IMG/VR virus record: IMGVR_UViG_3300031578_000005
Coordinates: 1-64,000 of that record
Strand: one strand, 5' to 3'
DNA length: 64,000 bases
Source of the DNA: a virus
Shown here piece after piece: positions 23,609 to 51,753 of this stretch. Under the pieces are notes generated by a model that was not told the DNA's origin, did no database searches, and was given only the letters and a program-made list of their open reading frames with translations. Position 1 is the first letter of the stretch; every line of letters starts with the position of its first letter. A program made the position numbers and the translations under genes.

Positions 23609-26600
23609 TTATAATTTGTTTTTCTTAATTCCTTTGTTAATAGTAATCGGATTTTCTAGTAATTCTGAGATTTCTTTAATCATGCTTTCAGCATTTTTAT
23701 TTAGTTTATCATTAATTTCATTATTCTCTTGAATAATGGCCTTTTGTTTTACTTTATTTTTACTTCCAGTCTCAGATGTGTTTCCAAAAACTAACTTTTC
23801 TAAATGTTCATTATATTCCCTTTCACTTAATTTATGATTTTCCATCATTGGTGGTATTCCACCACCAGCAGGAGCACCTGTTTCAGATGGCATTCCACCA
23901 CCTTCGGTACCACCACTTACCGGCATTCCCTCAATCGGTTCACCAAATCTTTTATCAATATCTGCAAATAAACCGGATTTCTTTATTGTAACTGGAGAAT
24001 CTTGAAGTTCTTGCATCACAACCTTTTCCATTTTTTGTTGCTTAAGGTCTTCAACAATTTCTCTATCAGTCATGTTAAATATCATACGCTTTGCTGTGGT
24101 ATGTGACATTGCAGCAATACCCCCTTCAGCACGTGTTAATTCAGTATATGTTTGTGCTTTTTCACGCATTAATTCTGACTTCAATAATTCTTGTTGTGTT
24201 GATGGATTGGTTAATGTTAAAGTAAAATCGCTTAAATCTTCTGCCGTGTACCCTAATAAAAATAAATGGATCATTGCCATTTTATTCAATTCTTGAATTA
24301 CTGATTGTTGTATTCGATTAATTTTTTTAGCGAATCTAATATCATATTGCGCCATGTTTTTACCAGCACCCGCAGCATCACTAAAACTTAAAAATGGTTT
24401 AGGCACACCAAGCCCAATAAATAAGTTATCTCTCAGATACTCAATATCTTGTATGGCATCTAAATTAGAATTTTTTGTAAATATTCCACATGATAATGCA
24501 AAATTATGATAATTATGAAATTCTTCATTACCATCAATGGTTATCGTACCAGTATCTTGTTTTTCAGTAAGAAACTCAATAGAAATAATCTTATGATTGT
24601 AACAAGGTACTTTGTGTTTAAAATCGTTCCAATTTGAATAGCCAAAATGTTTTAATAATTTATCAATGTTATTACGAGTAATTACAGTCATTTTATTTAA
24701 CTGTTTATTATTCGAATTTAATTTTTTGAATTCTACAAACCATTCAGAATTTTCAACATTAATTTTATTTTCAAGTATTAAATCAATTCTATTAAATTCA
24801 TTATAATAGTCAACAATTAAGTCAAGTAATTTTTCACTATATTTAATTGATTGTTTTTCTTTAATAATTTCGCCTAAATTTGTATTTTTCCATTGTAATT
24901 TAGTGTTATTTGAACATAATAATTTATGCTTTGGTTCATTCTTAGTTTTTATTGATTTCAATCTAATTCGATCAATAATTGCATTTCTATTAGGATTATT
25001 TTTAAATGTTTCAACCGACTTATTCCTAGATTTAATTGAATTATTAATACTTATATTATTTCTAAATTCTCTATCAATATTTGATAATTCATTAATATAT
25101 TTTTGTGCTGAATTAGATTGTTTTTTTCTTACATTAAAACAAAATTCTTTATCATATTTTAATTTATCGTGATAATTCTTTCTACCAGCTAATAATCTTA
25201 AATCAACAGATTTCTTAAATTCTTTATTAGTGTTATACTTAAATTTATATGCTTCGCTACCAATTGATGCTTGTTCAGCATGTTTTAATAGATGTTCATT
25301 AACTGTTAAAAATTCTAAATTATTTGGGTTATTATCATATCTATTAAAATTAATATGATGTCTAATTTTATTGGAATCTGGAATATTAAAATAATCCGAA
25401 ACCATTCTATGTGTATATATCCAATTATTTGTTGAATGATTATAAATCATTTCGTAATCATTCCCTTGATTTTTTATTTTTTCAAATTTTTTATTGAATG
25501 CCCACATTGATTCACCAACTTGTAAATCTTTGGCTTGTTTCTCACCATTAAATTTTGTTGGAAATTTATGATCAGGTGTACATATTATTTCCTCACCATT
25601 ATCTAAGGTCAGTTTAATCACTTGGGTGTTTTTACGAGTAATTCCCGCCCACGTAATTTTACTGGGCACAATTTGTCCTGTTTCGGAATCTATTGAATAT
25701 GACCATAATTCCTTACCCAATTCATATTCAGATATGACATCATTTAATTCAAGGCTTCTGCCATCAAGTAATTCAATCTTTGTATTTAACGCTAAACATG
25801 CTCCGGGAAGGGTGTCAATGCCTGTTTGGGTATTAGCATTTCTTACAGGTAGGAAATAATCTTCATCATTACCTAATATATTAAAACGATAATCAATTTG
25901 TCCACTATTTGGATTTACTTGTGAAGTTTTTTTAAATTTTGTTGCAACCTTATAGATATATTCTTCAATATCATCCTCATCAATATTTCCGACATCAATT
26001 TTAAATACTTTTTTCTCACCAGCACGAATAATACGATATGTTAACATAGCATCTTCAGCCATTACCAATTGCCTGAATACTCTACGAACTTTATTTAATA
26101 GGGAATTGTGAACAACAATGTTATTGGCATAAAAATTATGATTTTCATTATCGACATGAATATCATAAACAAAACCAATTTCATCTAATTCGATTGACTT
26201 TATTTTTTCGACAATGAAATCATTGGTTAATCTATTTTTAATGTCAGAAACAATTGTTTGCTTATTTTTTGATTCATAATAATATATTACATATGCATCG
26301 GAAATATTAATTACTTTATTGCCGTTAATAACAACATTATTTCTTTTTTTTCTTTTATTAATACTACCAGTTTTATATCCTAGTGATTGTGCCAGTAATT
26401 TAATATCGTTAATTAGTGCATAATTAGACATTTCGATTGTAAATCTTTTACAATTCCACTTATCAACGCTTACTGCCCCATCAGCATCTTGTAAACCTTC
26501 TAAAAATGCTTTTCTAATTTCAATCGATGCAGAATATATCCATTTGGGAATTCTTTTTGTTCTCGCATCCCCAGAAAATTCCATATTTTTTAATATTGTT

Positions 26601-29215
26601 GCCAAAGATTTTGAATTAACAACTGCTGAGGCAATTCCGTTAGCATAGTTATTATTCTTTCTTAAATATATTTTTTTATTTGAGAATTTTTCTAATAAAT
26701 TAATATATTTGCTATTAATTATATCATGTACACCATATGCAAAATAAACCATGTATGGTCTTTTTATATTTATTCCCCCATCACCAATTAAGAACCCAAA
26801 TAATTTTGCAAAATCCTCATCAACAAAATTTGGTACATATTTTAAATCACCAACAAAATCATCATACAACCTATTTTTATATTCTTTAATCTCAACTGAT
26901 TTATTAATTTCAATTTTATTATCGTAATCGTCATGGTTATTTATTATTAATCCATCCCCAATTTTTAACTCATTAACAAATTTTTCTTTAAATAAATCAT
27001 CGGTATAATCATAAATTGGAATTTTATGATTATCAGTTACTTTAAGATAATTATGTTGTGTTGATATTTTAAACGTTTGTTTTTCCCCATTACACACGAC
27101 ATCCAATACATTGGTTTCTATTTTTTGTTGTGTTTTAATGTCAAAACCAATAACAACATCACCCTTTAAAATATTCTTAATTTCTTTAATTCCATCCTTC
27201 GTTTTTATGTAAGTGTCTGATAATAAGCAACTTCCATAAGGCAAAAATTTGTCGTCTCCAAGTAATCTAAAATGTGCAATTTCAAAAGTATTAAATTCAT
27301 CACCAGTCATTCTTTCCTTAAATTTCACCAAAGGTTTGCCATTTTGAATTCTTTCAAACCTTTCTATTTCATAATTAACCATTTGTTTGACATGGGTAAT
27401 CCCCTTTTTTCTTTCGCCATATAATAATACGAAATTATCACCATATTTACAATTCGATACAAACACTCCATTTCTAGTATATTCACCACTTTCATCCTTA
27501 CTACAAATTGGAAAATTATGTCTATCCTGTTCGTTGTTTTTACCAACAACTTCCATGCAATATACATCACATTTCTCAGATATCTTCTCAATAGATATTA
27601 CTTTATGATTAAGAACACAGTTTTTATTACCACGTGCATTAGAAATGGCAGCGGCTCTTTTAAAATTACTTTCGTTATTGAATTTTGGATTAATTTCTGA
27701 CGCAAAATTACAATATGTTTTATGTGTTTTTCTAAATATTAATTTAGTTAATGTTGTTGATGATAATGATTTGGTTAAATCTTTTCTTATTTGATTATTG
27801 GCCATTTTAAACGATTTCATGAATTCATCATCTAGTGTCAGTATTTTACCTAAACCGTTTGCTGAAACATAATTATCACGATTTTCTAACACAACTATTA
27901 TGCGATTTAAACAATTATCATCAATTTTTAGTTGCATTTTATTCTTTAATTTATCTTGGTATTCAGAATCAGACCATAATTCAATCATTCTGTTTTTACG
28001 TATGATATTATGCTCATCATGCAATGGACTATTATTATATTTCTTAAAATACTTAGGATATGTTCCTAACATTTCTTTTGATAACCTATCTTTTCTATCT
28101 TTTGAACGAAGATATTTATCAATTCCCAACATTCTTCTTTCTTTTACGTCTTTCCTTTGTAGTATGAATTTTCCCTTTTCACCAAGCACGTTATGATATT
28201 CACAGTGTTTTCCAGTGGTCATTCTTAATAGGTTCTTTGGGTGATTATTCTTTTTATTGAAGTCAATATGATGTGTAACATATTTATCTTCGGACTGTTT
28301 TTCATCATCTAAGTTTATTACACATTCTTTTGCAACAGCTCTGTGTGTAAAAACATGACGATTTGTTGCTGGATCATATACTTTTTCATATCCAGAAATG
28401 AAATTTGTTTTATTACTTGTTATAGTATAAAAGGGCATTAAACTAATTCCTACATTTAGTTCATCAGCTCTTAGGTATGAGCCATTTCTAAGCATAAATT
28501 CATGATCTGGTGTTGTCTCAACATATGTACCATCATCAAATTTTATTTTTAATATTTCACTATTTTTTCTAGTTAAATCACACCAAACCACTTTACCGGG
28601 TAATATCTTTTTTGTTTCATCTTGAATGGAATATGTCCATATTTCTTCATTTGGGTTAAGTTTTATCCTTTCAGATAGTTCTTTAATTGTAATTGTTTCA
28701 CCATTTAATAGTGGAATCATACTATCATATTTAATCGGCAAGTTCCTTACCCAAAAAGGTAGATTAACATTAACATTTACAATATCATAGAAAAATTCCT
28801 CCAATAACATTTTTATTCTTTCTTTATTGGAATATATATTTAGCATCTTGCCATTTAAGCCGATTGTTGTGGCTTCTTCCATAAATAAATCCAATGCACT
28901 TGAAATAATGGGGTAGTATTCCATCCCCTCATAGTCAATGTATGCTGGCAATCTCGCTGCTTCATATTGAAGTGCCTTTTGGAAACCTCTATCAGTTGTT
29001 CTAAAGAATTTATTTTGAAGATCACGCTTTTGTTGTAATTCTAAACCCTTTTGATGTATTTCTTCGGGGGTGCTACCTTTAATTATGATCTTTGATTTTT
29101 CTTGTGCTGGTGTTGATTGAGATATATTTGTTTGTACGTCCTGAAGACCAAATCCATCTAAATTAAGCATTTTATTAAGTGCTTGATAAATTGTTTCTTT
29201 ATTTTGTTCTGCCAT
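23609..29215 (-). CDS. Portal protein (gp20-like) interrupted by three inteins
   Basis: An 1868-aa precursor. The exteins total about 621 aa and match T4 gp20: PYGS/SLLNKVRRVFRQL with EDAMLTYRIIRAGEKKVF, then TLPGA/SNLDAIQDIEYL. The dodecameric portal is the DNA entrance and the docking site for terminase and neck. Inteins sit at residues 160-588, 663-1037 and 1140-1582, each directly in a conserved portal motif, and all must splice out to give a working portal. The extein C-terminus is Gly/Met-rich, then acidic. A late-type motif is at 29238. Confidence 0.9.
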   Translation of the reverse strand: MAEQNKETIYQALNKMLNLDGFGLQDVQTNISQSTPAQEKSKIIIKGSTPEEIHQKGLELQQKRDLQNKFFRTTDRGFQKALQYEAARLPAYIDYEGMEYYPIISSALDLFMEEATTIGLNGKMLNIYSNKERIKMLLEEFFYDIVNVNVNLPFWVRNLPIKYDSMIPLLNGETITIKELSERIKLNPNEEIWTYSIQDETKKILPGKVVWCDLTRKNSEILKIKFDDGTYVETTPDHEFMLRNGSYLRADELNVGISLMPFYTITSNKTNFISGYEKVYDPATNRHVFTHRAVAKECVINLDDEKQSEDKYVTHHIDFNKKNNHPKNLLRMTTGKHCEYHNVLGEKGKFILQRKDVKERRMLGIDKYLRSKDRKDRLSKEMLGTYPKYFKKYNNSPLHDEHNIIRKNRMIELWSDSEYQDKLKNKMQLKIDDNCLNRIIVVLENRDNYVSANGLGKILTLDDEFMKSFKMANNQIRKDLTKSLSSTTLTKLIFRKTHKTYCNFASEINPKFNNESNFKRAAAISNARGNKNCVLNHKVISIEKISEKCDVYCMEVVGKNNEQDRHNFPICSKDESGEYTRNGVFVSNCKYGDNFVLLYGERKKGITHVKQMVNYEIERFERIQNGKPLVKFKERMTGDEFNTFEIAHFRLLGDDKFLPYGSCLLSDTYIKTKDGIKEIKNILKGDVVIGFDIKTQQKIETNVLDVVCNGEKQTFKISTQHNYLKVTDNHKIPIYDYTDDLFKEKFVNELKIGDGLIINNHDDYDNKIEINKSVEIKEYKNRLYDDFVGDLKYVPNFVDEDFAKLFGFLIGDGGINIKRPYMVYFAYGVHDIINSKYINLLEKFSNKKIYLRKNNNYANGIASAVVNSKSLATILKNMEFSGDARTKRIPKWIYSASIEIRKAFLEGLQDADGAVSVDKWNCKRFTIEMSNYALINDIKLLAQSLGYKTGSINKRKKRNNVVINGNKVINISDAYVIYYYESKNKQTIVSDIKNRLTNDFIVEKIKSIELDEIGFVYDIHVDNENHNFYANNIVVHNSLLNKVRRVFRQLVMAEDAMLTYRIIRAGEKKVFKIDVGNIDEDDIEEYIYKVATKFKKTSQVNPNSGQIDYRFNILGNDEDYFLPVRNANTQTGIDTLPGACLALNTKIELLDGRSLELNDVISEYELGKELWSYSIDSETGQIVPSKITWAGITRKNTQVIKLTLDNGEEIICTPDHKFPTKFNGEKQAKDLQVGESMWAFNKKFEKIKNQGNDYEMIYNHSTNNWIYTHRMVSDYFNIPDSNKIRHHINFNRYDNNPNNLEFLTVNEHLLKHAEQASIGSEAYKFKYNTNKEFKKSVDLRLLAGRKNYHDKLKYDKEFCFNVRKKQSNSAQKYINELSNIDREFRNNISINNSIKSRNKSVETFKNNPNRNAIIDRIRLKSIKTKNEPKHKLLCSNNTKLQWKNTNLGEIIKEKQSIKYSEKLLDLIVDYYNEFNRIDLILENKINVENSEWFVEFKKLNSNNKQLNKMTVITRNNIDKLLKHFGYSNWNDFKHKVPCYNHKIISIEFLTEKQDTGTITIDGNEEFHNYHNFALSCGIFTKNSNLDAIQDIEYLRDNLFIGLGVPKPFLSFSDAAGAGKNMAQYDIRFAKKINRIQQSVIQELNKMAMIHLFLLGYTAEDLSDFTLTLTNPSTQQELLKSELMREKAQTYTELTRAEGGIAAMSHTTAKRMIFNMTDREIVEDLKQQKMEKVVMQELQDSPVTIKKSGLFADIDKRFGEPIEGMPVSGGTEGGGMPSETGAPAGGGIPPMMENHKLSEREYNEHLEKLVFGNTSETGSKNKVKQKAIIQENNEINDKLNKNAESMIKEISELLENPITINKGIKKNKL
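24470..25798 (-). mobile_element. Intein 3 in portal (HNH type)
   Basis: 443 residues, Cys1 (CLALNTKIELLDG) to the terminal KN before Ser+1. Block B is ICTPDHKF. An HNH-like nuclease segment reads IRHHINFNRYDNNPNNLEFL. It is related to intein 1 across its splicing blocks. The penultimate residue is Lys, not His. Confidence 0.85.
26105..27229 (-). mobile_element. Intein 2 in portal (LAGLIDADG type)
   Basis: 375 residues, Cys1 (SCLLSDTYIKTKDG) to VVHN before Ser+1. It has two dodecapeptide motifs, LFGFLIGDGG (805-814 of the precursor) and FLEGLQDADG (904-913), and canonical block F/G (FVYDIHV, NFYANNIVVHN). A classical homing intein, unlike its two neighbours. Confidence 0.88.
27452..28738 (-). 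mobile_element. Intein 1 in portal (Pro1, HNH type)
   Basis: 429 residues. Aligning with intein 3 places the first intein residue at Pro160 (PIKYDSMIPLLNG against CLALNTKIELLDG), after WVRNL and before Cys+1 (SN/CKYGDN). It thus lacks the usual Cys/Ser1. Block B is TTPDHEF, the HNH-like part is VTHHIDFNKKNNHPKNLLRM, and block F has VYCMEVV with Cys where Asp is usual. The penultimate residue is Ser. Confidence 0.75.
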
Positions 29216-29341: not shown

Positions 29342-30939
29342 ATGACAATTTTAGAATTTATATCAGGTAATATAAATAACATTAAAGAGGCTTCGATAAA
29401 GAAGGTATTTCCTAATGAATATATTGAAATAATTAACTTCAATAATAATTTCTTCTTAGAACATGATATGAAATGGATTCAAAGATTATATAATTGGATT
29501 AATAATATCAATGAATTACCAAAATGTAAAAATGAAAATTGTTGTAATACTGTTAGATTTTTAGCCGTAGGAAAAAATAAAAGATATCTCGATTATTGTT
29601 CAAATAAATGTGCCCAAAGTTCACAAGTAATTATTGAAAAAAAGAAAAAAAGAAAAAAACAACACTAAATAATTTTGGAACAGAATACCCAATGCAAAAT
29701 ATTGAGGTAAAAAATAAATCAAAAAAAACAATTATAAAAAATTTTGGTGTCGATAATCCATCTAAATCAATAACGATACAAAATAAAAAAATAAATACTA
29801 ATATTAGTAAATTTGGCGTTGATAATTACTCAAAAACAAATGATTTTAGAAAAATTATGATAGATCGTCATAATGCCACTACATTAAAATCATTTTCAGA
29901 AAAATTAAATATTGACATAGGCAATATTGAAATAATTAATAAAGATTTTATTAAAATAAAAAATTATTGTACCATCCATGATGAATTTATAATATCAAAA
30001 GATAATATTTATAATAGAATAAATCAAAAAATCGAAAATATCTGTACTAAATGCAATCCAATTTCAGAAAATTCATCAATTAAAGAAAATGAGGTTAAGG
30101 AATTTATTAAGAATGAATTAAATATTAAAACCAAGAAAATACGAATTGAAAATAAAGAAATTGATATTTATTTGCCTGATTATAAATTAGGAATTGAATT
30201 TGATGGATTATATCATCATTCACAAAAATTTAAAGACATTAATTATCATCTGAACAAGACCGAAATTTGTGAGAAAAACAACATACAATTACTTCACGTA
30301 TTTGAGAACGAATGGGTTAATAAAAAAGAAATCGTCAAGTCAATCATTAAGAGTAAACTAGGAATTTATGCTGAGAAAATATTTGCTAGAAAATGCCAAA
30401 TTAATGAGGTAACTAACAATAATTTATTACGTAATTTCTTAAATACTAATCATTTACAGGGCTTTATTGGAAGTTCTGTTAAAATTGGTTTATTCTACAA
30501 CAATGAGCTAGTATCGCTTATGACATTTGGTAAGAAAAGACTGGCTATGGGTAGTAAAGTCAGTATTGACGGTGAACATGAGATGCTGAGATTTTGTAAT
30601 AAACTCGATACACAAGTAATTGGTGGTGCTAGTAAACTGCTTAATTATTTTATTGAAATCTATCAGCCTAAGTCAATATTAACCTTTGCTGATAGAAGAT
30701 ATAGTCAAGGTGGGCTGTATAAACAATTGGGTTTTGAACACATTGGTAATTCTGATCCAAGTTATCGATATTATCATAAACATGATTATGGCACAAAGCA
30801 TCGTTTCAATTTCAGAAAAGATAAATTAGTTAGAGAAGGTTATGATAAAAATAAAAGTGAACGTCAAATAATGACAGAGAGAGGATATTTAAGAATTTAT
30901 GATTGCGGAAATATGAGATTCTATAAAGAATTATTTTGA
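29342..30939 (+). pseudogene. Frameshifted EDxHD homing endonuclease with GNAT-like tail
   Basis: Two frames form one protein: 29342-29668 (Cys-rich N-terminus, as in the gene at 2144) and a second frame that continues through FGVDNPSK repeats to 30939. The switch falls in an A-rich run around 29637-29660 (EKKKKRKKQH stop, against KKTTLNNFGTEYPM). The nuclease core is YKLGIEFDGLYHHS. The C-terminal ~170 residues (VSLMTFGKKRL, EMLRFCNKLDT, GGASKLLNYFI) look like the GNAT-like domain seen in phage endonucleases. It may be inactivated, recoded or a sequencing indel. It stops 6 nt before the first promoter-like element of the cassette array. Confidence 0.7.
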
Positions 30940-30976: not shown

Positions 30977-30997
30977 TAATTGAAATACGACAGCAAT

Positions 30998-31018
30998 GTT
31001 TTATATTTGTTGTTATAA
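30998..31018 (+). repeat. Right half of attC- or attI-like site
   Basis: GTTTTATATTTGTTG/TTATAA matches the right arm of site B (31847-31866). No left arm is visible, so it is either attI-like or lost its left half next to the endonuclease gene. Confidence 0.5.
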
Positions 31019-31028
31019 AATGTTTATT

Positions 31029-31208
31029 ATGAAAACACAAAAAGATATGGTAAAGGCTTGGGCTAAGATGGAATTAAATTCTTCTTATGGTTTCCCACCA
31101 ATTCCTGTTATACCAATGGAGTATGATGAACACAAAGCACTACAAATTACCGAAGAAGGTAAGAAGAATTTAATTGTGATACAAGAAGCATTGAAAAATG
31201 TTTTATAA
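31029..31208 (+). CDS. Cassette 1 gene, hypothetical
   Basis: 59 aa, MKTQKDMVKAWAKMELNSSY... then PPIPVIPMEYDEHKAL. The stop codon TAA is part of the attC left core TTATAAC, a typical cassette arrangement. An in-frame ATG nine bases earlier (31020) is possible. No recognised domain. Confidence 0.6.
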   Translation: MKTQKDMVKAWAKMELNSSYGFPPIPVIPMEYDEHKALQITEEGKKNLIVIQEALKNVL

Positions 31209-31295
31209 CGGTCGGCAATATGAAACGGTTGTCTAATAAGACGTTTCAAATTTAGTAATAGCTTGATGGCAACTGTTTTATATTGCTTGTTAGGC
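31203..31295 (+). other. attC-like site A
   Basis: Left core TTATAAC (31203-31209), left arm GCAATATGAAAC (31215-31226), right arm GTTTTATATTGC (31275-31286, one G-T mismatch), TTG, right core GTTAGGC (31289-31295), which fits GTTRRRY exactly. Confidence 0.7.
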
Positions 31296-31310
31296 ACAGT
31301 ATGGTAAATT

Positions 31311-31604
31311 ATGATTGGTTTATATAGTATTATTAAATGTCCTAAATGTGGAATTGAGATTCCAATATGTTATGGGCATTATTGTGGAATTGGTATCGAA
31401 ATTGAATTTGAAGAAGATACGATTTGTAGAGATAAAAAATGTATGTATGAATTTAAAATAGACATACCCTTTTTAAATCAATTTAAAACAATAGAAGTAG
31501 ATTGGGAAGATTTTAAAACAATAAAAAATGAACTTGTTGGAATTGATTCATATGATGATTATTGTAAACAATTATTAAATTATATAAAAAATAAAATTTT
31601 ATGA
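31311..31604 (+). CDS. Cassette 2 gene, zinc-ribbon-like
   Basis: 97 aa with KCPKCG near the N-terminus and CRDKKC further on, giving a possible four-Cys zinc site, then an acidic helix. It is followed by a second frame overlapping by 4 nt (ATGA). Located in cassette 31290-31861. Function unknown. Confidence 0.6.
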   Translation: MIGLYSIIKCPKCGIEIPICYGHYCGIGIEIEFEEDTICRDKKCMYEFKIDIPFLNQFKTIEVDWEDFKTIKNELVGIDSYDDYCKQLLNYIKNKIL

Positions 31605-31738
31605 GAATATATATTAAAATAACAAATGAAATTGATATTATACCAAGTTTTCAAAAAATATTGGTTAATGATAAAATAATTGGAATAAATATAAAAATTT
31701 TATTTATATTTGTTTGTTGGAAAATGGGTGAAAAGTAA
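31601..31738 (+). CDS. Cassette 2 second small gene
   Basis: 45 aa, MRIYIKITNEIDIIPSFQKI..., hydrophobic near the C-terminus (IKILFIFVCW). It starts at the ATGA overlap with the previous gene and stops 6 nt before the attC left core. Confidence 0.35.
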   Translation: MRIYIKITNEIDIIPSFQKILVNDKIIGINIKILFIFVCWKMGEK

Positions 31739-31744
31739 TATTGT

Positions 31745-31867
31745 GCCTAACGGTTGCAAATATAAAACGTTTATTAAACTAAACTTAAATTGAAAAACAG
31801 AATATAAATAAAAACACGACAATAAATTTGAAACACTGAAATAAATGTTTTATATTTGTTGTTATGG
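31745..31867 (+). other. attC-like site B
   Basis: Left core GCCTAAC (31745-31751, canonical RYYYAAC), left arm GCAAATATAAAAC (31756-31768), right arm GTTTTATATTTG (31847-31858), TTG, right core GTTATGG (31861-31867). The spacer contains TTGAAACACTGA, shared with other cassettes. Confidence 0.7.
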
Positions 31868-31904
31868 TTAGTTAATTAGTAGAAACTTAAAAAATATAAA
31901 AAAT

Positions 31905-32162
31905 ATGAGAGAAATTTATTTTAAAATCAAACAAAATTGTGAATTACCAGTAGCAATGTTAAATTACACTTACAAAGATTTTGATGGTGTGATACATCCA
32001 TTCAGTAATATTTTTGTTGATTTTAAAGACGATGAAAAGAACATTGAAAAAATGGAAGCAATAAAAAACAAATATGGTTCATTTTTTATGTTTTTTAATA
32101 ATAGTGATGAAGGTATAGATTTCTGGAAGAACAATCCAATTACGATAGTACCAAAGGTTTAA
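31905..32162 (+). CDS. Cassette 3 gene, hypothetical
   Basis: 85 aa, MREIYFKIKQNCELPVAMLN..., then strands and a helix (DDEKNIEKMEAIKNKYGSFF). The cassette begins with TTATGGTTAG and ends with the complementary CTAACCATAA-like core after the stop. No known motif. Confidence 0.6.
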   Translation: MREIYFKIKQNCELPVAMLNYTYKDFDGVIHPFSNIFVDFKDDEKNIEKMEAIKNKYGSFFMFFNNSDEGIDFWKNNPITIVPKV

Positions 32163-32166
32163 TTAA

Positions 32167-32293
32167 CCATAACGTAAATAATATGGCAAGTTTGCCAACC
32201 AAATAAGTAGAAACTTTAATAAAATATACAAAATTATGATTACATGTAAAGAAAGAAAAAAGAGAAGCAAATTTGCTATATTTAGTGTTAGCA
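32167..32293 (+). other. attC-like site C
   Basis: Left core CCATAAC (32167-32173). The arm GTAAATAATATGGCAAG pairs with TTTGCTATATTTAGTG with a two-base bulge, as extrahelical bases do in attC. Right core GTTAGCA (32287-32293). Confidence 0.6.
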
Positions 32294-32469
32294 ACAGGTT
32301 TGTTATTAAGGACTTGAATGAAGAGCAGTGGTATGTTCGCACGTATAAAGGACATAAACCACCGAACTTTGTTAGTTGCACTGGATATGCTAAAAAATAC
32401 AAATTTAGATTAATTGCACAAATACGTGCGTGGTTACTTGGCAACTGTGTTGTTCAAACTTGTTGCTAA
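32236..32469 (+). CDS. Cassette 4 gene, reading through attC site C
   Basis: 77 aa if started at ATG 32236, which lies in the spacer of site C, so the frame runs through the recombination junction. The conserved-looking part (EEQWYVRTYKGHKPPNF, then GYAKKYKFRLIAQIRAW) lies in cassette 4. A non-ATG start inside the cassette is possible. The stop TAA is inside TGCTAAC, the left core of site D. Confidence 0.5.
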   Translation: MITCKERKKRSKFAIFSVSNRFVIKDLNEEQWYVRTYKGHKPPNFVSCTGYAKKYKFRLIAQIRAWLLGNCVVQTCC

Positions 32470-32540
32470 CTACTCAATATAAACAACTGTCGTAACAGTC
32501 TATAAATCAATGATTATGAAACAATCTTTGACGGACTTAC
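32464..32540 (+). repeat. Half attC-like site D plus 66-bp repeat copy B
   Basis: Left core TGCTAAC (32464-32470) is followed by the repeat 32475-32540, which matches 756-821. No right arm occurs before the terminase gene end at 32567. Confidence 0.55.
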
Positions 32541-32566: not shown

Positions 32567-34654
32567 TTATTTAGTTCTTAATCCATCAAATAGCCATGAA
32601 TTCGAAATATATGGATTTAATGGTGATGCACTTGATGGTGAAATTATCGGTCGGTTTTTTATTTCTTTTTTACTTCCAATTTCGGATATGTCATTATTTG
32701 TTATAATTGCATTAAGCATTTTTTCTGTAATTCCTTTGCTTTGTTTAAATCTTGCCATATCGAAATTAATTACGAATAACCCCAATGATAACCCCATAAT
32801 GGAATCATCATGAAATGAACGCTTATGATCTGCAACACGATTACCAGCAATTGTTACAAAGGTCTTTAATTCGTTTAGCAATCTGAATGACCTTATTATA
32901 ATATCCTCTAGGTGGATTGCTCTTTGCATTTCAAGTAAAATTGATGCACGGTTATTGCCGATAAAAAATCCCGGAATTAAATCAACATTAACAATATTAC
33001 CATCAGACATAATTTTTTGACCTCTTTTTACATATCCTTGTAATCTGTCTCTACTTGGTTTATGTGTTACTTCGGCATAATGCAGATTCTCATATCCAAA
33101 TTCAAGCAATTTTTCAACAGTCTGAATACCATAACCCCCGGTGATATCAACAACACAATAAGCATCATTATATCTTTTTCCATATTGATATGCAATTTCG
33201 GCAAGCATTTGTGGTGTGACTTTACCATAATATTCTGCAACTTGCTCGACTTTATGTCGTTTTATTTTCACTTTTTTTGCTTTTTCATTTTTAATAACGA
33301 CCTTTTCTTCAATCGTTTCAACGGTTTTTAGAATATTAATTGTTGAATTATCTTCGCCATGTCCGGGTGATGCATCGATTGCCATGATATATGTTTCGCC
33401 AGCTAACACATCTTCCCAAACCCACATGTTTTTGTCAAGATATTCTTGTCTTATTGGTGGTTTAATTTCATTTTCCTCAATACGTTTTAAATATTCTTCG
33501 GCAATAAAATTATCACCAGACCCAAGAAATGAGCAAACAATTTCCTGTGCAATACGTTTCATATCACCATTTGCATTTTGGATTTGTATTTCAAACCAAG
33601 GCGAACTTGCCTCCCAACCATCATTAGCTAATTGAATTCTTTTCTCAGCAGACCAATTTTCATCAGGTAATCTTATTTCATTATTTTTATTTTTATTTTT
33701 TAACCAAACCAAGTTTTTATTATATCTAGGATCATTATACCACCACAATTCGACTGCTTTGAATGTATTTTTTGGATTACCATTTTCATCCAATTCTCTT
33801 GCACCCATAAATGTTTTATAAAAAACCGGGTCCAATCCATTTGGCGTTGACACCATAATTGCTGAACCACCGGTTTGCAGTGTTGGAAATGCAGCCGTCC
33901 AGAATTTATCACCCTTTTCCGTCCAAGCAGTTTCGTCCCAAAATAATAATGTTGGGGTTGTACCACGCAAACCACCCTTAGCTGAAAATGCTCCCAATGC
34001 GGAGCCATTATCATATCGTTTTAGTTTTTGTGTATCTTTAAAATTTTGTTCAGATTCTTTACCAGTTTTGGGACGTAGCCATGTAGGACAGTTATTAATG
34101 AATTCAACAACATCATTCATTAATTCATCACGTGCAGTATCTAATCTATCAGCAACAATCGCAACAGTACGATTAGAATTAAACATCACATACCAAGCAA
34201 TATATGCACAAGTTGTTGTACTTACCCCTGCTTGCCTGTATTTATTAGCAATAAGAAATCTATTCTGGGGATTATGATAATTATTGATTAAATCTTTTTG
34301 TGATTCGAATAATTTAAATGGAACAATTAGACCTGCATTTCCTTGTGTTTGGTCAAAAATTGTTAAGTACGTTTCAATAAAATATATTGGATTTGCTGCA
34401 CAACGAATTATTTCATTTTCTTGCTCAATATATGTTAATTTACTTGCTTGCTTAACAACACCTGATTTGGTAACAATAATCGGTTCGACTTTAGCAGATT
34501 TTTTTCTAAGTTCAGCATATAGCTTTCTCGCAGATTCTTTTTCACGTTCCCTTAATATATCAATTGGAACAACTGGTGCATGTTCAGGAACTAATGATTC
34601 TAATTTTTCAATTTTTTCTCTTTCCTTTTCTTCGTCACTTAAATATCTTCTCAT
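32567..34654 (-). CDS. Large terminase subunit (gp17-like)
   Basis: A 695-aa packaging motor. The ATPase has Walker A-like KYRQAGVSTTT (138-148), Walker B LLFWDETAW (236-244) and STPNG (coupling motif, 269-273). The RNase H-like nuclease has AIDASPGHGED (Asp427), VVDITGGYG (Asp503) and FHDDS (Asp616). It is similar in length to T4 gp17 (610 aa) with a longer N-terminus. It lies alone on the minus strand beside cassette array 1. Confidence 0.92.
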   Translation of the reverse strand: MRRYLSDEEKEREKIEKLESLVPEHAPVVPIDILREREKESARKLYAELRKKSAKVEPIIVTKSGVVKQASKLTYIEQENEIIRCAANPIYFIETYLTIFDQTQGNAGLIVPFKLFESQKDLINNYHNPQNRFLIANKYRQAGVSTTTCAYIAWYVMFNSNRTVAIVADRLDTARDELMNDVVEFINNCPTWLRPKTGKESEQNFKDTQKLKRYDNGSALGAFSAKGGLRGTTPTLLFWDETAWTEKGDKFWTAAFPTLQTGGSAIMVSTPNGLDPVFYKTFMGARELDENGNPKNTFKAVELWWYNDPRYNKNLVWLKNKNKNNEIRLPDENWSAEKRIQLANDGWEASSPWFEIQIQNANGDMKRIAQEIVCSFLGSGDNFIAEEYLKRIEENEIKPPIRQEYLDKNMWVWEDVLAGETYIMAIDASPGHGEDNSTINILKTVETIEEKVVIKNEKAKKVKIKRHKVEQVAEYYGKVTPQMLAEIAYQYGKRYNDAYCVVDITGGYGIQTVEKLLEFGYENLHYAEVTHKPSRDRLQGYVKRGQKIMSDGNIVNVDLIPGFFIGNNRASILLEMQRAIHLEDIIIRSFRLLNELKTFVTIAGNRVADHKRSFHDDSIMGLSLGLFVINFDMARFKQSKGITEKMLNAIITNNDISEIGSKKEIKNRPIISPSSASPLNPYISNSWLFDGLRTK

Positions 34655-43517: not shown

Positions 43518-44166
43518 GTTATTATCCATACAACAAGTATCTCTGACTCTTGGTGTCACCAAGAAAACATTAAGGATATGGGATAACGAAGGTAAACTCA
43601 TATCTGTTAAAACCGTTGGTGGACACCGTAAATACCGTGAGGAAGACATTAACAACTACATGGGTGAACACAGTGTCGAAGTTGTTATAACTGGTGTCGC
43701 CACATATAGTCGTGTCAGTTCACATGAACAGAAAACCAAAGGAGATTTGGACAGACAGTCTCAGAGGATTTCTGAATACTGTGCGAAGAAAAAATATAGT
43801 GTTGAACATATTATTAAAGATGTCGGGTCTGGACTTTCGGACACCCGTGTTGGTTTTGTTAAACTCGTGGATTTGGTTATTAAGAAAAAAATTAGTAAAA
43901 TTGTAATCGAAAACAAAGACCGTCTTACCAGATTTCAATTCAACCTGATTAAGACATTCTTTAACAGTTATGATGTTGAGCTGGAATGTGTGGACAATAA
44001 CAACATATCCAATGAGGAAGAATTCGTGAACGACATCATGATGCTCATGGCTTCGTTCTCTGGAAAACTTTACGGGAAGCGTAGCGTTAAGCGTAAAAAA
44101 GAATTGAAAGAAGAAAAATTGAAGTTACAACAATTAAAAGAGAAAAATGAACAACCAGTGGTTTGA
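43510..44166 (+). CDS. tnpA: IS607-family serine recombinase TnpA
   Basis: 218 aa. An N-terminal MerR-like HTH (LLSIQQVSLTLGVTKKTLRI, then GHRKYREED) is followed by a small serine-recombinase domain: ATYSRVSSHEQK with catalytic Ser about 70, GDLDRQSQ and ENKDRLTRF. It is typical IS607 TnpA in length and order. The preferred ATG is 43510, four codons inside the longest frame. The stop overlaps the helicase start by 20 nt, unlike the usual direct tnpA-tnpB overlap. Confidence 0.88.
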   Translation: MNKLLSIQQVSLTLGVTKKTLRIWDNEGKLISVKTVGGHRKYREEDINNYMGEHSVEVVITGVATYSRVSSHEQKTKGDLDRQSQRISEYCAKKKYSVEHIIKDVGSGLSDTRVGFVKLVDLVIKKKISKIVIENKDRLTRFQFNLIKTFFNSYDVELECVDNNNISNEEEFVNDIMMLMASFSGKLYGKRSVKRKKELKEEKLKLQQLKEKNEQPVV

Positions 44167-46783
44167 AAGTAGAAATCTGAGAGTATTAACATACCAAGAT
44201 ACCGCAATTACTAAAGTACAGGAAAGTCTTGAACAGCGTGAGATAACTGTTCTCGCTGCCTGTCCGTCAGCAGGAAAAACTCTTATGACAATTTATATGA
44301 TGGAAGAATGGCTTCGTCAGAATCCCAATAGTAAAATAATGGTACTGGCTCACGGTACAACAATTCTCCGTACACAGTTTCATGATGTTCTCAAAGAGAC
44401 TAAACCAAATTTCACATACAACCTTGTTGAGAAATTCACTCAGTATGATGTTACCGCAGATGTCAATATTTGTTTACCTCAGACTCTTGCAGGAAATGTC
44501 TTGGATAAGATTGACTTTCTCATAGTCGATGAAGCGCACCAATTTTACTTCGCTGAGAAGATGATGAAAGACATCATCAAACAGACCAAGCCGAAGAAAC
44601 AATTGCTTCTCACGGGTACACCATCACCATTCATCAGAAAAGGTTTTAAAATCATTCCTGTTACGCTCAACACGATATTTGATGAAGGTATGATTTCAGA
44701 CCTTTATGTTGAGATAGCAACATCATCGTACACCTTTGACCCGATGACTGACTTCAATCAAGATGATGAACTAAAACTTGGCGTTTATATAAAGGATTCT
44801 GAGACAAAGAAAACACTTGATGACCTTGTAAGTAAGATTGTTGAAAGGCTCAAAAGTATTAGAGGTAATGATTATCAGAACTTGCTTCCCGAATGGTTAC
44901 CCACATTAAAAAGACTACAAAAGACGATGATTGCTTGTAGGAGTCAACAACAGGCAATGCAAGTTAAACATTACTTTGACAAGATGGGTGTTAAATCAGC
45001 ATTAAGCATATCAGACATTGATTATAACAGCAGTGAGATTGAAGTCTTCAAACAAGATGTTGATTGTCTTATTCTTATTGTAGTGGGTCGTGGTATACTT
45101 GGCTTTAATTATCCAGAACTTGTGAATGTTGTTGATATGACCACAAGTCAGAATGTTGATAGGATATATCAGTTGCTCTGTCGTGTTATCCGTAAACATC
45201 CCGAAGGTCAGAAGAAACTATTTTTCAAGGTTGCTCCGAATATTCATAGTGATTACTACAAATACATAATGACCGCAGTATTATCATTGTCAGATGAATC
45301 ATTTTTTACCAAGTTCAACGGGAAGAATTTCTCAGAAATGATTATTCCTATCATCAAAACAAAGAGAGAACATCACGAACCAAATAATGGTGGTGGTAAT
45401 GGTAAACCAAGACCGAAAACATTAAAACCAATTGACTTTGAGGGTTTACCAGTTTTCGAATTTTTCAAAGACCTTTATCATAAGAAGGATGCGTTGCTTC
45501 ATGTTTATGCATACACAACGGTAAGGGATGTACGAGCAGAATTTATGAATTTTAAACCAAGCGGTTATTGGACTTTTGAAAAATGTATGGAAAGTGCATC
45601 ACACTATATTAGTAGTGGAGATTGGTTTAAAAATGATTCGGGTGCATATACTGCTGCCATCGAAAAGAAATGGTTTGAAGCATGTACGAAACATATGTTA
45701 AATGTTAGAAAACCAAATGGTTTTTGGACAAAAGAAAAATGTATAGAAAGTGCATTAAAATATAAAACTAAAAACGAATGGAGAATACATAATAATAAAG
45801 CATTAAATGCTGCATTATTAAATAATTGGTACGATGAATGTACCAAACATATGGTGGATATGCATAATTCATGGACGAAAGAAAAGTGTATTGAGAGTGC
45901 GAAAAAACATAATAATAAAACCGCTTGGTTTAAAAATGACGGGAACGCCTACTCTGCTGCGAAAAATAATGGATGGTTCGAAGAATGCGTTACTCACATG
46001 GAAAAATTAACAGGATTTTGGACATTTGAAGCATGCAAAACAAGTGCTTTAAAATATAATACCGTTAAAGAATGGTTAAAAAATGAAAGTGGAGCATATC
46101 ATAAAGCCAGAAATAATAATTGGTTGGAAGAATGTTGTAGTCATATGTCACGATTAAACAGAAAACCATATACTAAAGAAGAATGTATTGAAAATGCGAA
46201 AAAATATACGAAATTATTCGATTGGAGAAAAGAGAATTGTAATTTATATGCTGCTGTATTAACCAACGGATGGCTGGAAGAATGCACATCACATATGACA
46301 AGATTGGTAAAAAAGCGTTGGACACTTGACACATGTAAAGTAAGTGCTCTCAAATATAATACAAGAAGAGAATGGTTTGATGGCGAAATGTCTGCATATA
46401 ACGCTGCTCGTATAAATAAATGGTTGGATGAATGTTGTCCACATATGACAAGAGAATCGTTTCCAAAAAATTACTGGACGAAAGATAAATGTTTAAAAAT
46501 TGTATTAAATTATCGAACATCCAAAGAATGGAAAATCGGTGATAATAAATCCTATACCGCAGCACAAAGATATGGATGGCTTAATGAATGCACTAATCAC
46601 ATGAAAAATAATTTAAATAACAGCAATATGGAAAACGAAAAATTTGAACAAAGAAACTATGTTAAACCTGCTTGGCAGCCAACTGAAAAGGAAATGGCAC
46701 AGGAGAAACAAATCATTACAAACGAACCAACACCCGAACCTGCTCCAGTAACAACAGAAGGTGATAATACAAACAACGAGTAA
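44147..46783 (+). CDS. SF2 helicase with seven DNA-binding-type repeats
   Basis: 878 aa. Residues 1-420 are an SF2 helicase: PSAGKTLMT (Walker A), FLIVDEAHQFY (DEAH), LLLTGTPSPF (motif III) and RIYQLLCRVIRKH (motif VI). From about residue 475 follow seven ~47-residue repeats of the form W-T-x-E-x-C-x-x-S/N-A-x-x-Y-x-x-x-x-x-W ... A-Y-x-A-A-x-x-x-x-W-L-E-E-C-x-x-H-M, as in phage-encoded endonucleases. The tail is Pro/Glu-rich. It sits between tnpA and tnpB, a cargo position I do not know from described IS607 elements. Base composition changes at the repeats, which are more AT-rich. Confidence 0.8.
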   Translation: MNNQWFESRNLRVLTYQDTAITKVQESLEQREITVLAACPSAGKTLMTIYMMEEWLRQNPNSKIMVLAHGTTILRTQFHDVLKETKPNFTYNLVEKFTQYDVTADVNICLPQTLAGNVLDKIDFLIVDEAHQFYFAEKMMKDIIKQTKPKKQLLLTGTPSPFIRKGFKIIPVTLNTIFDEGMISDLYVEIATSSYTFDPMTDFNQDDELKLGVYIKDSETKKTLDDLVSKIVERLKSIRGNDYQNLLPEWLPTLKRLQKTMIACRSQQQAMQVKHYFDKMGVKSALSISDIDYNSSEIEVFKQDVDCLILIVVGRGILGFNYPELVNVVDMTTSQNVDRIYQLLCRVIRKHPEGQKKLFFKVAPNIHSDYYKYIMTAVLSLSDESFFTKFNGKNFSEMIIPIIKTKREHHEPNNGGGNGKPRPKTLKPIDFEGLPVFEFFKDLYHKKDALLHVYAYTTVRDVRAEFMNFKPSGYWTFEKCMESASHYISSGDWFKNDSGAYTAAIEKKWFEACTKHMLNVRKPNGFWTKEKCIESALKYKTKNEWRIHNNKALNAALLNNWYDECTKHMVDMHNSWTKEKCIESAKKHNNKTAWFKNDGNAYSAAKNNGWFEECVTHMEKLTGFWTFEACKTSALKYNTVKEWLKNESGAYHKARNNNWLEECCSHMSRLNRKPYTKEECIENAKKYTKLFDWRKENCNLYAAVLTNGWLEECTSHMTRLVKKRWTLDTCKVSALKYNTRREWFDGEMSAYNAARINKWLDECCPHMTRESFPKNYWTKDKCLKIVLNYRTSKEWKIGDNKSYTAAQRYGWLNECTNHMKNNLNNSNMENEKFEQRNYVKPAWQPTEKEMAQEKQIITNEPTPEPAPVTTEGDNTNNE

Positions 46784-49984: not shown

Positions 49985-50058
49985 CTGGGAGTGGGAAAAT
50001 TGGTTAATCCGCTTGCCTTGGACGCAAGAGACTGCTGAATCGTACTCAGCCTCCCAGA
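49985..50058 (+). tRNA. tRNA-Pro (TGG)
   Basis: Acceptor CTGGGAG/CTCCCAG, anticodon arm CTTGC-CTTGGAC-GCAAG. The T-loop ATCGTAC is unusual. Confidence 0.75.
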
Positions 50059-50067
50059 CAATTTTAT

Positions 50068-50156
50068 CGAGTAGTAGCTCTGTAGCTGGTAGCAGTCCCG
50101 TCTTGGAAACGGGTGGAATATAAAATCCCTCGCAGGTTCGAACCCTGCCTATTCGA
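50068..50156 (+). tRNA. tRNA with TGG anticodon and long variable arm
   Basis: Acceptor CGAGTAG/CTATTCG, anticodon arm CCCGT-CTTGGAA-ACGGG, T arm GCAGG-TTCGAAC-CCTGC. The variable region is ~18 nt, which is class II size and odd for Pro. Isotype uncertain. Confidence 0.6.
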
Positions 50157-50214
50157 CTGGTAGTCAAAGAGTTATATTGATTTCTACTTTGACTGTAAAA
50201 AAATCCATATATAT

Positions 50215-50288
50215 GGTGGTATTAGTGTAGTGGTTAGCACGATACTCTGTGAAAGTATTAGCACCAGTTCAAATCTGGTATATCACCC
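50215..50288 (+). tRNA. tRNA-His (GTG)
   Basis: Acceptor GGTGGTA/TATCACC with discriminator C, anticodon arm ATACT-CTGTGAA-AGTAT. Confidence 0.85.
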
Positions 50289-50295
50289 CAAATAT

Positions 50296-50369
50296 TACTC
50301 TCTGGTGTAATTGGTTAACATTTTGGAATTTGACTCCAAAGATTGTAGGTTCAAGTCCTACGAGAGTAA
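50296..50369 (+). tRNA. tRNA-Gln (TTG)
   Basis: Acceptor TACTCTC/GAGAGTA, anticodon arm TTGGA-ATTTGAC-TCCAA. Confidence 0.8.
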
Positions 50370-50375
50370 CAATAT

Positions 50376-50458
50376 TGTCCTCTGGCAGAATGGCTATTGC
50401 ATCGCCCTTTGAAGGCGACACCCGAAACGGTTTACAGGTTCGAATCCTGTGAGGACTA
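50376..50458 (+). tRNA. tRNA with TTG anticodon and long variable arm
   Basis: GTCCTC/GAGGAC acceptor, anticodon arm TCGCC-CTTTGAA-GGCGA, variable region CACCCGAAACGGTTT, T arm ACAGG-TTCGAAT-CCTGT. Class II architecture with a Gln anticodon; isotype uncertain. Confidence 0.6.
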
Positions 50459-50466
50459 CACTATAT

Positions 50467-50537
50467 TACCAAATGGTGTAATGGTAACACCCAATCCTCT
50501 GAAGGTTGTGTTCTTGGTTCGAATCCAAGTTTGGTTA
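50467..50537 (+). tRNA. tRNA-Gln (CTG)
   Basis: Anticodon arm CAATC-CTCTGAA-GGTTG, T arm CTTGG-TTCGAAT-CCAAG. The first acceptor pair is T-T. Confidence 0.7.
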
Positions 50538-50594
50538 CTAAGATAGTTGAATCAATTATTATGAATGCATAAGAATTATTAATGGGCTTAGAAC

Positions 50595-50624
50595 TTGGAA
50601 TTAAATATTAATTCATTATATTTG
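50595..50624 (+). promoter_or_regulatory. Host-type promoter
   Basis: TTG (50595-50597), 19 nt, TATATTTG (50617-50624), 5 nt before ATG 50629; a nearly leaderless transcript is implied. Confidence 0.6.
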
Positions 50625-50628
50625 CAAA

Positions 50629-50856
50629 ATGGAAGCAGAAGAATTAATAAAAAAAATAAAGAAGTTTGTCGAAGAACTTGATAATAACTTCGAATCAATA
50701 CTTATTCCAACTAAGTATGATCCTAATGATATACAGTATGATGTTTCTTTTATTATGATGGAGAAAGTCGAAGATGATAGAAGTACGCCAAGATTCATTG
50801 TAAATGTAACTGATTTAAATAAAGATGATAATGTCAAAACTAAGAGTGGGAAATAA
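50629..50856 (+). CDS. Hypothetical protein
   Basis: 75 aa, acidic, starting with a Lys/Glu-rich helix (MEAEELIKKIKKFVEELDNN...). It overlaps the next small gene by 26 nt. Function unknown. Confidence 0.5.
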   Translation: MEAEELIKKIKKFVEELDNNFESILIPTKYDPNDIQYDVSFIMMEKVEDDRSTPRFIVNVTDLNKDDNVKTKSGK

Positions 50857-50980
50857 AGAAAACGCTAAAATAAATGGTGAATGGGGCGACCATGTAAGAA
50901 AATGGGGCAAATTTTTCACAGCTAAATTACGTAGAAATATTGATAAACAAATAATTAAAAAAGAGTACGATGAATTATAA
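50831..50980 (+). CDS. Small basic protein
   Basis: 49 aa, MSKLRVGNKENAKINGEWGD..., Lys/Arg-rich, with WGDHVRKWGKFFTAK. The 3' end overlaps the next gene start by 11 nt, suggesting translational coupling. Function unknown. Confidence 0.5.
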   Translation: MSKLRVGNKENAKINGEWGDHVRKWGKFFTAKLRRNIDKQIIKKEYDEL

Positions 50981-51377
50981 TTTATTCTTAGATGATATAA
51001 GAGTTCCTAGAAATGTATACTCATATATACATAATCCCATATACGCTATGGATGAGTGGATAATTGTTCGAAACTATGATGATTTTGTAAAATACATTGA
51101 AAAAAATGGTATGCCCGAAAAAATTTCTTTTGATCATGATTTATCAGCAGAACATTATGACCCGGACTTATATGGTAGTGAAACATATGATGAAGTATAT
51201 GATCAATTTGAAGAAAAAACCGGATATGATTGTGCTAAATGGCTCATTAATTACTGTATTGAAAATAAATTAGATTTGCCCAATGAAATCCTAATTCACT
51301 CGATGAATATTACCGGTGGGTTGAACATCAAATCATTATTTGATACTTACAATAAATCATTAAAAGTAAATTCGTGA
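50970..51377 (+). CDS. Cyclic-phosphate-processing receiver-like protein (cREC)
   Basis: 135 aa. It begins LFLDDIRVPRN, has ISFDHDLSAEHYD in the middle, then YDCAKWLINYC and NEILIHSMNITGGLNIKSL. This is the conserved set of the phage cREC family (receiver fold with an added HD/HSxN site), proposed to process cyclic phosphate ends of RNA or nucleotides. It lies near the tRNA clusters and an RNA ligase gene, consistent with a role in RNA repair. Confidence 0.7.
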   Translation: MNYNLFLDDIRVPRNVYSYIHNPIYAMDEWIIVRNYDDFVKYIEKNGMPEKISFDHDLSAEHYDPDLYGSETYDEVYDQFEEKTGYDCAKWLINYCIENKLDLPNEILIHSMNITGGLNIKSLFDTYNKSLKVNS

Positions 51378-51488
51378 TTTGCAAATTGCAAATTATTATG
51401 TGTTGAGATTATAAGTACTAAAATTTATTACTAGAACATATTAATAATCAACAACATATAAATTAAACTAAAAATAATTTAAAAAAAG

Positions 51489-51531
51489 TTTGCAGATATT
51501 GTAACATTTACTAACTTTGTTGCGTATTTAG
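51489..51531 (+). promoter_or_regulatory. Double promoter before tRNA cluster 2
   Basis: TTTG (51489-51492), 19 nt, TAACTTTG (51512-51519), overlapping TTGTAACA (51499-51506), 16 nt, CGTATTTAG (51523-51531). The same layout as at 49484. Confidence 0.65.
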
Positions 51532-51576
51532 ATAAAACGAATTAAGAATTTTTGAATAATTAAATAAATAATACAA

Positions 51577-51666
51577 ATGAAAAATTTACTCGACATATTG
51601 ATGGTAGTCTTAGCAGTTGACCTATTATGGGCAGATGCAGAGGATAAACTATGTTTAGTCGGGTAA
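51577..51666 (+). CDS. Small hydrophobic leader peptide
   Basis: 29 aa, MKNLLDILMVVLAVDLLWAD..., encoded between the promoter and a terminator before tRNA genes. Confidence 0.45.
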   Translation: MKNLLDILMVVLAVDLLWADAEDKLCLVG

Positions 51667-51696
51667 TGAAAAATTACACTCCTTTCTTAATTGAAA

Positions 51697-51727
51697 AACC
51701 CGACAACTAAAAATGGTCGGGTTTTTT
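51697..51727 (+). terminator. Rho-independent terminator
   Basis: AACCCGAC/GTCGGGTT-like stem followed by T6. Confidence 0.85.
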
Positions 51728-51743
51728 GTTTTTATAGAAAGGA

Positions 51744-51753
51744 TGTTCTTTGA
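51744..51753 (+). promoter_or_regulatory. boxA-like antitermination site
   Basis: TGTTCTTTGA identical to 49961-49970, between terminator and tRNA-Asp. A hairpin GGAGTGG/CCACTCC follows at about 51778-51800. Confidence 0.45.

Follow-up and report, generated by a model that had tools for sequence, protein, structure and literature searches.

Integron-type gene cassettes in a T4-like giant phage and the phage-borne tyrosine recombinase that probably moves them

Small gene units between the portal and terminase genes

The DNA analysed here, hereafter the window, comprises the first 64,000 nucleotides of a 128,513-bp IMG/VR record (IMGVR_UViG_3300031578_000005; G000 in our numbering). At 31.0–32.5 kb, between the portal and terminase genes, it carries a series of integron-type units (array A), in the place where a first-pass annotation had located them. 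The features of this locus are as follows.

29692–30939 (+): homing endonuclease gene (phrog_3339, E 9e-115), inserted along with array A in the portal–terminase gap
30996–31208 (+): cassette gene A1, 70 aa or shorter, with internal ATGs at 31020 and 31029
30998–31015 (+): right half (L'–R') of an attC ahead of unit 1, an 18-mer identical to the right half of attC site 2
31203–31295 (+): attC site 1, finder score 40, covariance model E 3.3e-13 (site used in training)
31311–31604 (+): cassette gene A2, 97 aa
31745–31867 (+): attC site 2, finder score 39, covariance model E 2.5e-6
31905–32162 (+): cassette gene A3, 85 aa
32167–32293 (+): attC site 3, finder score 33, covariance model E 8e-3
32236–32469 (+): cassette gene A4, 77 aa as called, overlapping attC site 3
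32467–32486 (+): end of array A, the left core TAAC of unit 4 (32470) followed by an attI-like tail, TACTCAATATAAACA, with no hairpin
32567–34654 (-): terminase large subunit gene (phrog_5989, phrog_2), marker of the array A site

The stop codons of the array A genes lie in or near the left cores, that of A1 within the left core TTTATAAC, and a 45-aa ORF (31601–31738) follows A2 within its unit. The A3 unit ends at TAAC 32173 with a linkage, in the sense described below, of 10/11. As the called A4 ORF (from 32236) begins inside hairpin 3, its true start is uncertain, and a later one, for example TTG 32314, is possible. None of the array A genes could be assigned to a family in Pfam or PHROGs at a meaningful score. 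The first-pass annotation had given each of four units a hairpin of its own; three complete hairpins are indeed present, but ahead of unit 1 only the right half at 30998–31015, and no left half, is recognisable, and unit 4 ends in the attI-like tail. This tail, TACTCAATATAAACA, matches in a looser form the motif AACTAYTNWATATMMA located upstream of phage integrase genes. A candidate integrase remnant behind the tail was rejected, its alignment not being significant, and none is detectable past the tail.

Of 80 relatives, 77 have a gap of 70–105 bp here (78 bp for the related phage G001), where the present phage holds the homing endonuclease gene and array A. Judged by this comparison, array A is an insertion absent from 77 of the 80 relatives, and the portal–terminase gap, empty in these, was rejected as a general site for arrays. 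Homing endonuclease genes stand on the flanks of array A and ahead of the second array described below. The portal gene itself (23609–29215, -) encodes 1868 aa, only ~870 of which align to the G001 portal; the remainder resembles inteins that contain homing endonuclease domains.

The phage and its relatives

By its gp23-type major head protein, gp21-type protease and T4-type terminase (phrog_138, phrog_207, phrog_5989/phrog_2), this phage is T4-like; a tail sheath was found in G001. The best named relatives of its terminase are from Flavobacterium phages, at 26% identity, with ~100 closer relatives in IMG/VR, and this giant (jumbo) phage probably infects Bacteroidota.

The G001 contig (202.8 kb) is collinear with positions 1–71.6 kb of our record, and the rest of G001 aligns collinearly with a further contig, G010 (140.8 kb), such that G010 and our record cover complementary stretches of G001. 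Contig ends overlap exactly between G012 and G010 (127 bp, within an attC) and between G010 and our record (33 bp, within an integrase gene), G012 being a 47.9-kb contig with an intact recombinase adjoining an array. The simplest reading of these overlaps, which themselves lie in repeats, is that the three contigs derive from one phage of ~317 kb broken at repeats, and relatives of 321–328 kb are in line with such a size. We infer that the intact G012 recombinase belongs to the same phage population as our record, and a recombinase is probably encoded somewhere in the complete genome.

A second array and further sites

A second array (array B), of two to three units, lies within the window at 61.1–62.5 kb.

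59066–60163 (+): RNA ligase gene (PF09511), left marker of the array B locus, a neighbour conserved in 14 relatives
61083–61177 (+): attC site 1 of array B, finder score 42.5, covariance model E 7e-15 (site used in training)
61293–61685 (+): cassette gene B1, 130 aa, with a leader, MSKEIRQMIDKVKNFKQFVNE, common to cassette genes of other phages
61776–61866 (+): attC site 2 of array B, finder score 34, covariance model E 1e-13 (site used in training)
61977–62147 (+): cassette gene B2, apparently shortened, with a leader of the B1 type (MENEMRKLIDQVKNFGKSLNEN)
62378–62394 (+): end of array B, TAAC and the attI-like motif TATTATATATAAA
62414–62475 (+): remnant of an integrase gene's 5' end, decayed and without its start codon, recognised by alignment to the 5' region of the G039 integrase

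The alignment of 62414–62475 to the G039 gene scored 108, against a maximum of 58 for shuffled sequence. The locus of array B, from the RNA ligase gene to the next conserved gene, holds a different and longer array in G001 and no array in the other relatives examined. The suggestion that related genomes might hold other cassettes at the same site was borne out at this locus. Some ten more sites lie in the record outside the window: the finder placed one at 117274–117366 and eight at 124304–128215, and the covariance model added weaker ones at ~88.1 kb (E 5.5e-4) and ~121.3 kb (E 0.04).

A tmRNA (56414–56777) and, by ARAGORN, 18 tRNA genes occur among and around small phage genes at 49985–63043 (+) of the window. 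Array C contains a GIY-YIG/NUMOD3 homing endonuclease gene (L135:1321–1890, +), and the same phage record has a TnpB-like gene (L132:10225–11454, +).

Evidence that the hairpins are attC sites

Our finder looked for TAAC and GTTA separated by 45–170 bases and joined by complementary inner arms. Its five best distinct sites in the 64 kb were the three of array A and the two of array B (31203–31295, 31745–31867, 32167–32293, 61083–61177 and 61776–61866). The annotation's central observation, that the left core at a unit's end recurs, reverse-complemented, at the start of that same unit, was confirmed for array A at 9/11 positions in unit 1 and 10/11 in units 2–4, and such complementarity reached at least 10/11 in most units across six records. 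It was absent from randomised sequence: when the window was randomised 60 times with an order-1 Markov model, no linked pairs and no sites scoring at least 33 arose, compared with five of each on the real + strand. Nor did the finder report any site of at least 32 in 80 loci of related phages.

A covariance model trained on 35 sites, including those at 31203, 61083 and 61776, comprises 21 pairs, and compensatory changes occur in 14 of these. The attC boxes R''/R' and L''/L' fold as a hairpin with an asymmetric unpaired spacer between the R and L boxes, and conserved G.T pairs in this covarying hairpin favour the ORF-sense strand. Run on the array A region, as had been proposed, the model recovered all three sites; the score at 31203 (E 3e-13) is not independent since that site was in the training set and, as the three strongest sites of the window trained the model, independent support within it comes from 31745 (E 2.5e-6) and 32167 (E 8e-3). 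A scan of Rfam at gathering thresholds reported tRNAs and tmRNA only, and no attC family. Among 257 Gb of bacterial genomes, a search with the exact attC motif returned 33 matches, one of them with an array by the finder; the exact motif is therefore rare in bacteria, and the bacterial relatives of these arrays were found by the covariance model rather than by the motif.

The sequence TATATTTG is present in the right arm of some attC sites. It was considered as a conserved Bacteroidota promoter box and rejected, only some sites having it.

Recombinase genes and an attI-like motif

The window opens within a recombinase gene.

1–110 (+): truncated phage tyrosine recombinase (integrase) gene, codons 17–52, identical to the intact gene of G012 (44045–44848, -)

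The end of G010 carries an attI-like motif and integrase codons 1–26, preceding the window's codons 17–52. No intact recombinase was found in the 128.5-kb record, where TIGR02249 and PF00589 gave nothing, or in G001. PF00589 did identify tyrosine recombinase genes in ten array-carrying viral records (G012, G019, G021, G025, G027, G030, G033, G035, G039 and G040), which are partly redundant in that G019/G030/G033 and G027/G035 represent the same or near-identical phages. Full-length enzymes with intact catalytic residues adjoin the arrays in most of the ten; the G039 copy has an internal stop, and two of the records, both > 250 kb, also carry terminase (G025, G030). In each case examined, the array lies 5' of the recombinase gene, co-directional with it and pointing towards it. 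Arrays A and B each have at least two attC sites and no integrase gene nearby, as a CALIN does. The first-pass description of array A as CALIN-like, with no adjacent integrase, thus holds for that array alone; it does not extend to the window, with its integrase fragments at 1–110 and at the end of array B, nor to the nine other viral contigs in which recombinases of the same family stand beside arrays.

The recombinase matches PF00589 at E 4e-38 and in alignment keeps the residues R-K-H-R-H-Y. Identities among the phage enzymes are 49–79% (36–38% for the more distant G040), and those to other enzymes ~33–38% (Tenacibaculum), ~26–32% (IntI1) and 25–34% (XerD). The additional domain specific to IntI is absent, by alignment, from the phage recombinases and from their array-adjacent bacterial relatives: matches to TIGR02249 lack approximately positions 205–255 in the phage enzymes and 180–238 in the bacterial ones, and fall below the family cut-off. 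As cited in a later paper, this domain was reported to be necessary (Messier and Roy, 2001, in PMC9668308). Activity of the phage recombinase on attC is thus not guaranteed given that the domain is missing, and for the same reason the phage enzymes are not canonical IntI proteins, though the system appears to work in an integron-like manner.

At the array end upstream of the recombinase gene, both G012 and G039 have TAAC|TATTATATAT, and G025 has a close variant. The motif also ends array B and, in the looser form, array A, and two further truncated integrase starts, located in G012 and G010, have it too. We infer that TAAC|TATTATATAT, defined from few examples, is an attI site that has been copied to several places.

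A short contig in a Bacteroidales MAG (G041:C184; L258) has an array of phage-like polarity together with a recombinase gene, whose product is 61% identical to the G012 enzyme. It may be phage DNA in the Bacteroidales bin.

Cassettes move with the hairpin upstream of the gene

Two units were found as clean copies in different contexts, and these two only. One, of 276 bp, is identical at 275/276 positions between G001 and G012, with different neighbours; the other, of 297 bp, occurs twice in G018, 100% identical, in two arrays and in opposite orientation, with borders exactly TAAC...TAAC. On these few examples, cassettes move as units bordered at the G|TT (TAA|C) point. Both clean copies include the hairpin 5' of the gene and exclude the hairpin 3' of it, and two partial transposed copies agree. 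As read from these copies, the mobile unit is TAA|C–hairpin–GTTA–gene–TAA|C, the hairpin belonging to the downstream gene; the first-pass annotation, in which a hairpin closed each unit at its 3' end, had misassigned it. Accordingly, attC site 1 of array A is part of the downstream unit, which runs from TAA|C 31209 to 31751.

Folding points the same way. AttC-like folds are predicted but, where the annotation had looked to the bottom strands, the better-folding strand is the ORF strand in 84 of 87 phage-type units, compared with none of the five scored units in a Tenacibaculum chromosomal array used as a control. In that bacterium (Tenacibaculum sp. AHE14PA), duplicated cassettes have GTTA...hairpin...CGTT borders, the classical form. 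The classical polarity, with attC following the gene, does not hold for the phage arrays; since the hairpin is upstream of the gene and the strand asymmetry is opposite to that of the control, the phage genes are antisense to the classical attC orientation. The array sites of Polaribacter phage P12002L likewise fold better on the gene-sense strand, for which reason this known CALIN may belong to the reversed type.

What the cassettes encode

Only a few of 84 cassette proteins had family matches, namely a methyltransferase, an exonuclease, a PAPS reductase and ADP-ribosyltransferase-like proteins. Leaders such as MSEDIRKMIDKVKNFKQFVNE and MELRKFIATTIREYLNEQ are common to cassette genes of several phages, where they stand before unrelated bodies. 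Those ending in (L/V)NE were located at the following positions.

Window: 61293 and 61977
Remainder of the record: 116808 (-) and 126852
G001: 191607
G018: 2793
L084: 537
L110: 13918
L129: 930

Leaders with a terminal LNE are found in head-cluster genes as well, and MINE closes a likely propeptide of the major head protein. The (L/V)NE leaders may target proteins to the capsid and be cleaved by the gp21-type protease; because the phage has such a protease, we hypothesize that leader-bearing cassette products are packaged and injected. Two cassette proteins are ADP-ribosyltransferase-like (L135:2852–3400, with an ART-PolyVal match, and G001 191607–192074, with a YHGT motif), reminiscent of the Alt/Mod effectors of T4.

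Proposed mechanism and alternatives

Our explanation, which we hold with considerable confidence, is that these are integron-type cassettes of a T4-like jumbo phage, moved at attC hairpins by a tyrosine recombinase that is itself phage-borne and belongs to a Bacteroidota lineage. The claim of integron-like cassettes in a T4-like phage, already made in the first-pass annotation, is sustained by the linkage, the covarying hairpin, the swapped content of a locus and the identical cassettes in different contexts. The sites, their linkage and covariation, the exact unit borders, the differences in occupancy and the adjacency of recombinase and array can all be read from the genomes themselves; the action of the recombinase on the sites, the strand recombined and the role of the attI-like motif are what we propose. 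The ORF-sense strand would fold into the attC hairpin, and the recombinase would exchange strands in TAA|C on its 5' side, equivalent to the classical G|TT read on the other strand. Excised circles would then consist of a hairpin and its downstream gene, and would insert at another TAAC site or at the attI-like TAAC|TATTATATAT, ~40 nt upstream of the recombinase gene, so that arrays would grow beside attI sites. Scattered copies of attI with a recombinase start (array B, the contig junction, G012:2405) may be present or former extra platforms; array A has the tail motif only. Cassette genes lie antisense to the classical integron polarity and point to the recombinase gene.

A different possibility is that the arrays are passive CALINs, genuine cassettes shuffled in trans by the integron recombinase of a Bacteroidota host, with the phage-borne recombinase genes as hitch-hikers or dead. 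Our record and G001 do carry arrays and no intact recombinase, the recombinase starts in the window are truncated or decayed, related recombinases occur in 115 of 395 Bacteroidota genomes (E ≤ 1e-30), Bacteroidota chromosomes also have similar attC arrays, and attC sites of virulent phages, P12002L among them, recombine with the bacterial IntI1 (PMC9892861). We nonetheless regard this as rather unlikely, given the full-length, catalytically intact enzymes beside arrays in most of the ten viral records, two of them with terminase, and a gene polarity opposite to that of the host array examined, in Tenacibaculum; because of this reversal, the phage cassettes are not simply host cassettes.

Much less probable still is a classical CALIN in which each gene owns its 3' hairpin and crossover falls at the right-side G|TTA. 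The stop codons in or near the left cores would suit it, and linkage by itself does not decide polarity, but in both clean transposed copies, with the two partial ones in agreement, the hairpin precedes the gene, and the strand asymmetry is inverted relative to the Tenacibaculum control. T4-like phages recombine heavily, and homing endonuclease genes flank array A and precede array B, so one could also imagine small phage genes with structured terminators or repeats shuffled by homologous or homing-endonuclease-driven recombination, with no integron involved. We give this hardly any credence: it would not lead one to expect unit-end complementarity specific to each gene, exact TAAC borders or a recombinase–attI–array anatomy, and linked pairs did not arise in any of the 60 randomisations.

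Beyond phage-borne cassette movement as such, we tentatively suggest, at slightly less than even chances, a distinct phage-adapted integron class in T4-like jumbo phages of Bacteroidota. Its recombinase would lack the IntI-specific domain, each genome would have several attI platforms, and the cassette genes would lie antisense to attC; part of the cassettes would encode proteins with capsid-targeting leaders ending in (L/V)NE, some of them ADP-ribosyltransferase-like, so that the phage would swap injected effectors as cassettes.

Relation to known integrons

Integrons are regarded as gene-capture platforms of bacteria (and archaea), and phage integrons have so far mostly been seen as fragments acquired from hosts. 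The large phages studied here appear to run an integron system themselves, with their own recombinase family, arrays at several loci of one genome and cassettes common to different phages. If true, this would explain accessory-gene exchange among such phages and would add a large cassette pool. Two textbook features of integrons, the IntI-specific domain and the 3' polarity of attC, may also be dispensable.

The annotation knew of no description of such arrays in this phage type. Phage CALINs do have precedents, although we found none for the present arrangement. Among 10,705 phage genomes, Qi and colleagues (2023; PMC9892861) reported 17 CALINs and four integrons or In0 elements; attC sites from virulent phages were recombined by IntI1, including one P12002L attC with IntI1/attI1. 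The complete integrons were in temperate or inactive prophages (Vibrio, E. coli P1, Shewanella), those of Vibrio prophages being described as segments of host chromosomal integrons (PMC9892861). Our arrays resemble these CALINs as attC arrays with small genes, in phages of which some are virulent (PMC9892861), and resemble that of P12002L in having hairpins of the present type on the gene-sense strand. The integrons of that study differ in having neither a recombinase lineage common to T4-like jumbo phages nor dispersed platforms, and we found no statement on reversed gene polarity in that paper (PMC9892861). In the open-access literature we found no description of phage integrons of this kind, of Bacteroidota chromosomal integrons or of Tenacibaculum integrons. 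The phage-borne recombinase family, the dispersed platforms and the reversed cassettes look new, whereas phage CALINs as such were already known.

With the class 1 integron of plasmid R100 and its IntI1, the phage system shares a tyrosine recombinase, an attI beside the recombinase gene, hairpin attC sites and tandem, co-oriented small genes; it differs in its enzyme, which is 26% identical to IntI1 and is without the additional domain present there, and in that the R100 cassette genes read away from intI. On the Tenacibaculum sp. AHE14PA chromosome, an array of related sites of ~70 kb (1,286–1,358 kb; L252–L256) lies beside a related recombinase (34% identity). The likeness extends to the missing IntI-specific domain, the same asymmetry of the hairpin spacer and cassette-type repeats. 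However, the Tenacibaculum array has classical polarity and is a single large chromosomal array downstream of the recombinase gene, whereas the phage arrays are upstream of it, with genes antisense to attC.

We found no report in the open-access literature of a Bacteroidota recombinase lineage that lacks the IntI-specific domain and stands beside arrays. The related recombinases and arrays of Bacteroidota chromosomes suggest a widespread integron type that would be missed by searches requiring the domain. IntI above the family cut-off was detected in only two of ten bacterial genomes tested, and there elsewhere in the genome. In seven further Bacteroidota chromosomes (L282–L288), the tyrosine recombinase next to large cassette arrays likewise lacks the IntI-specific domain.
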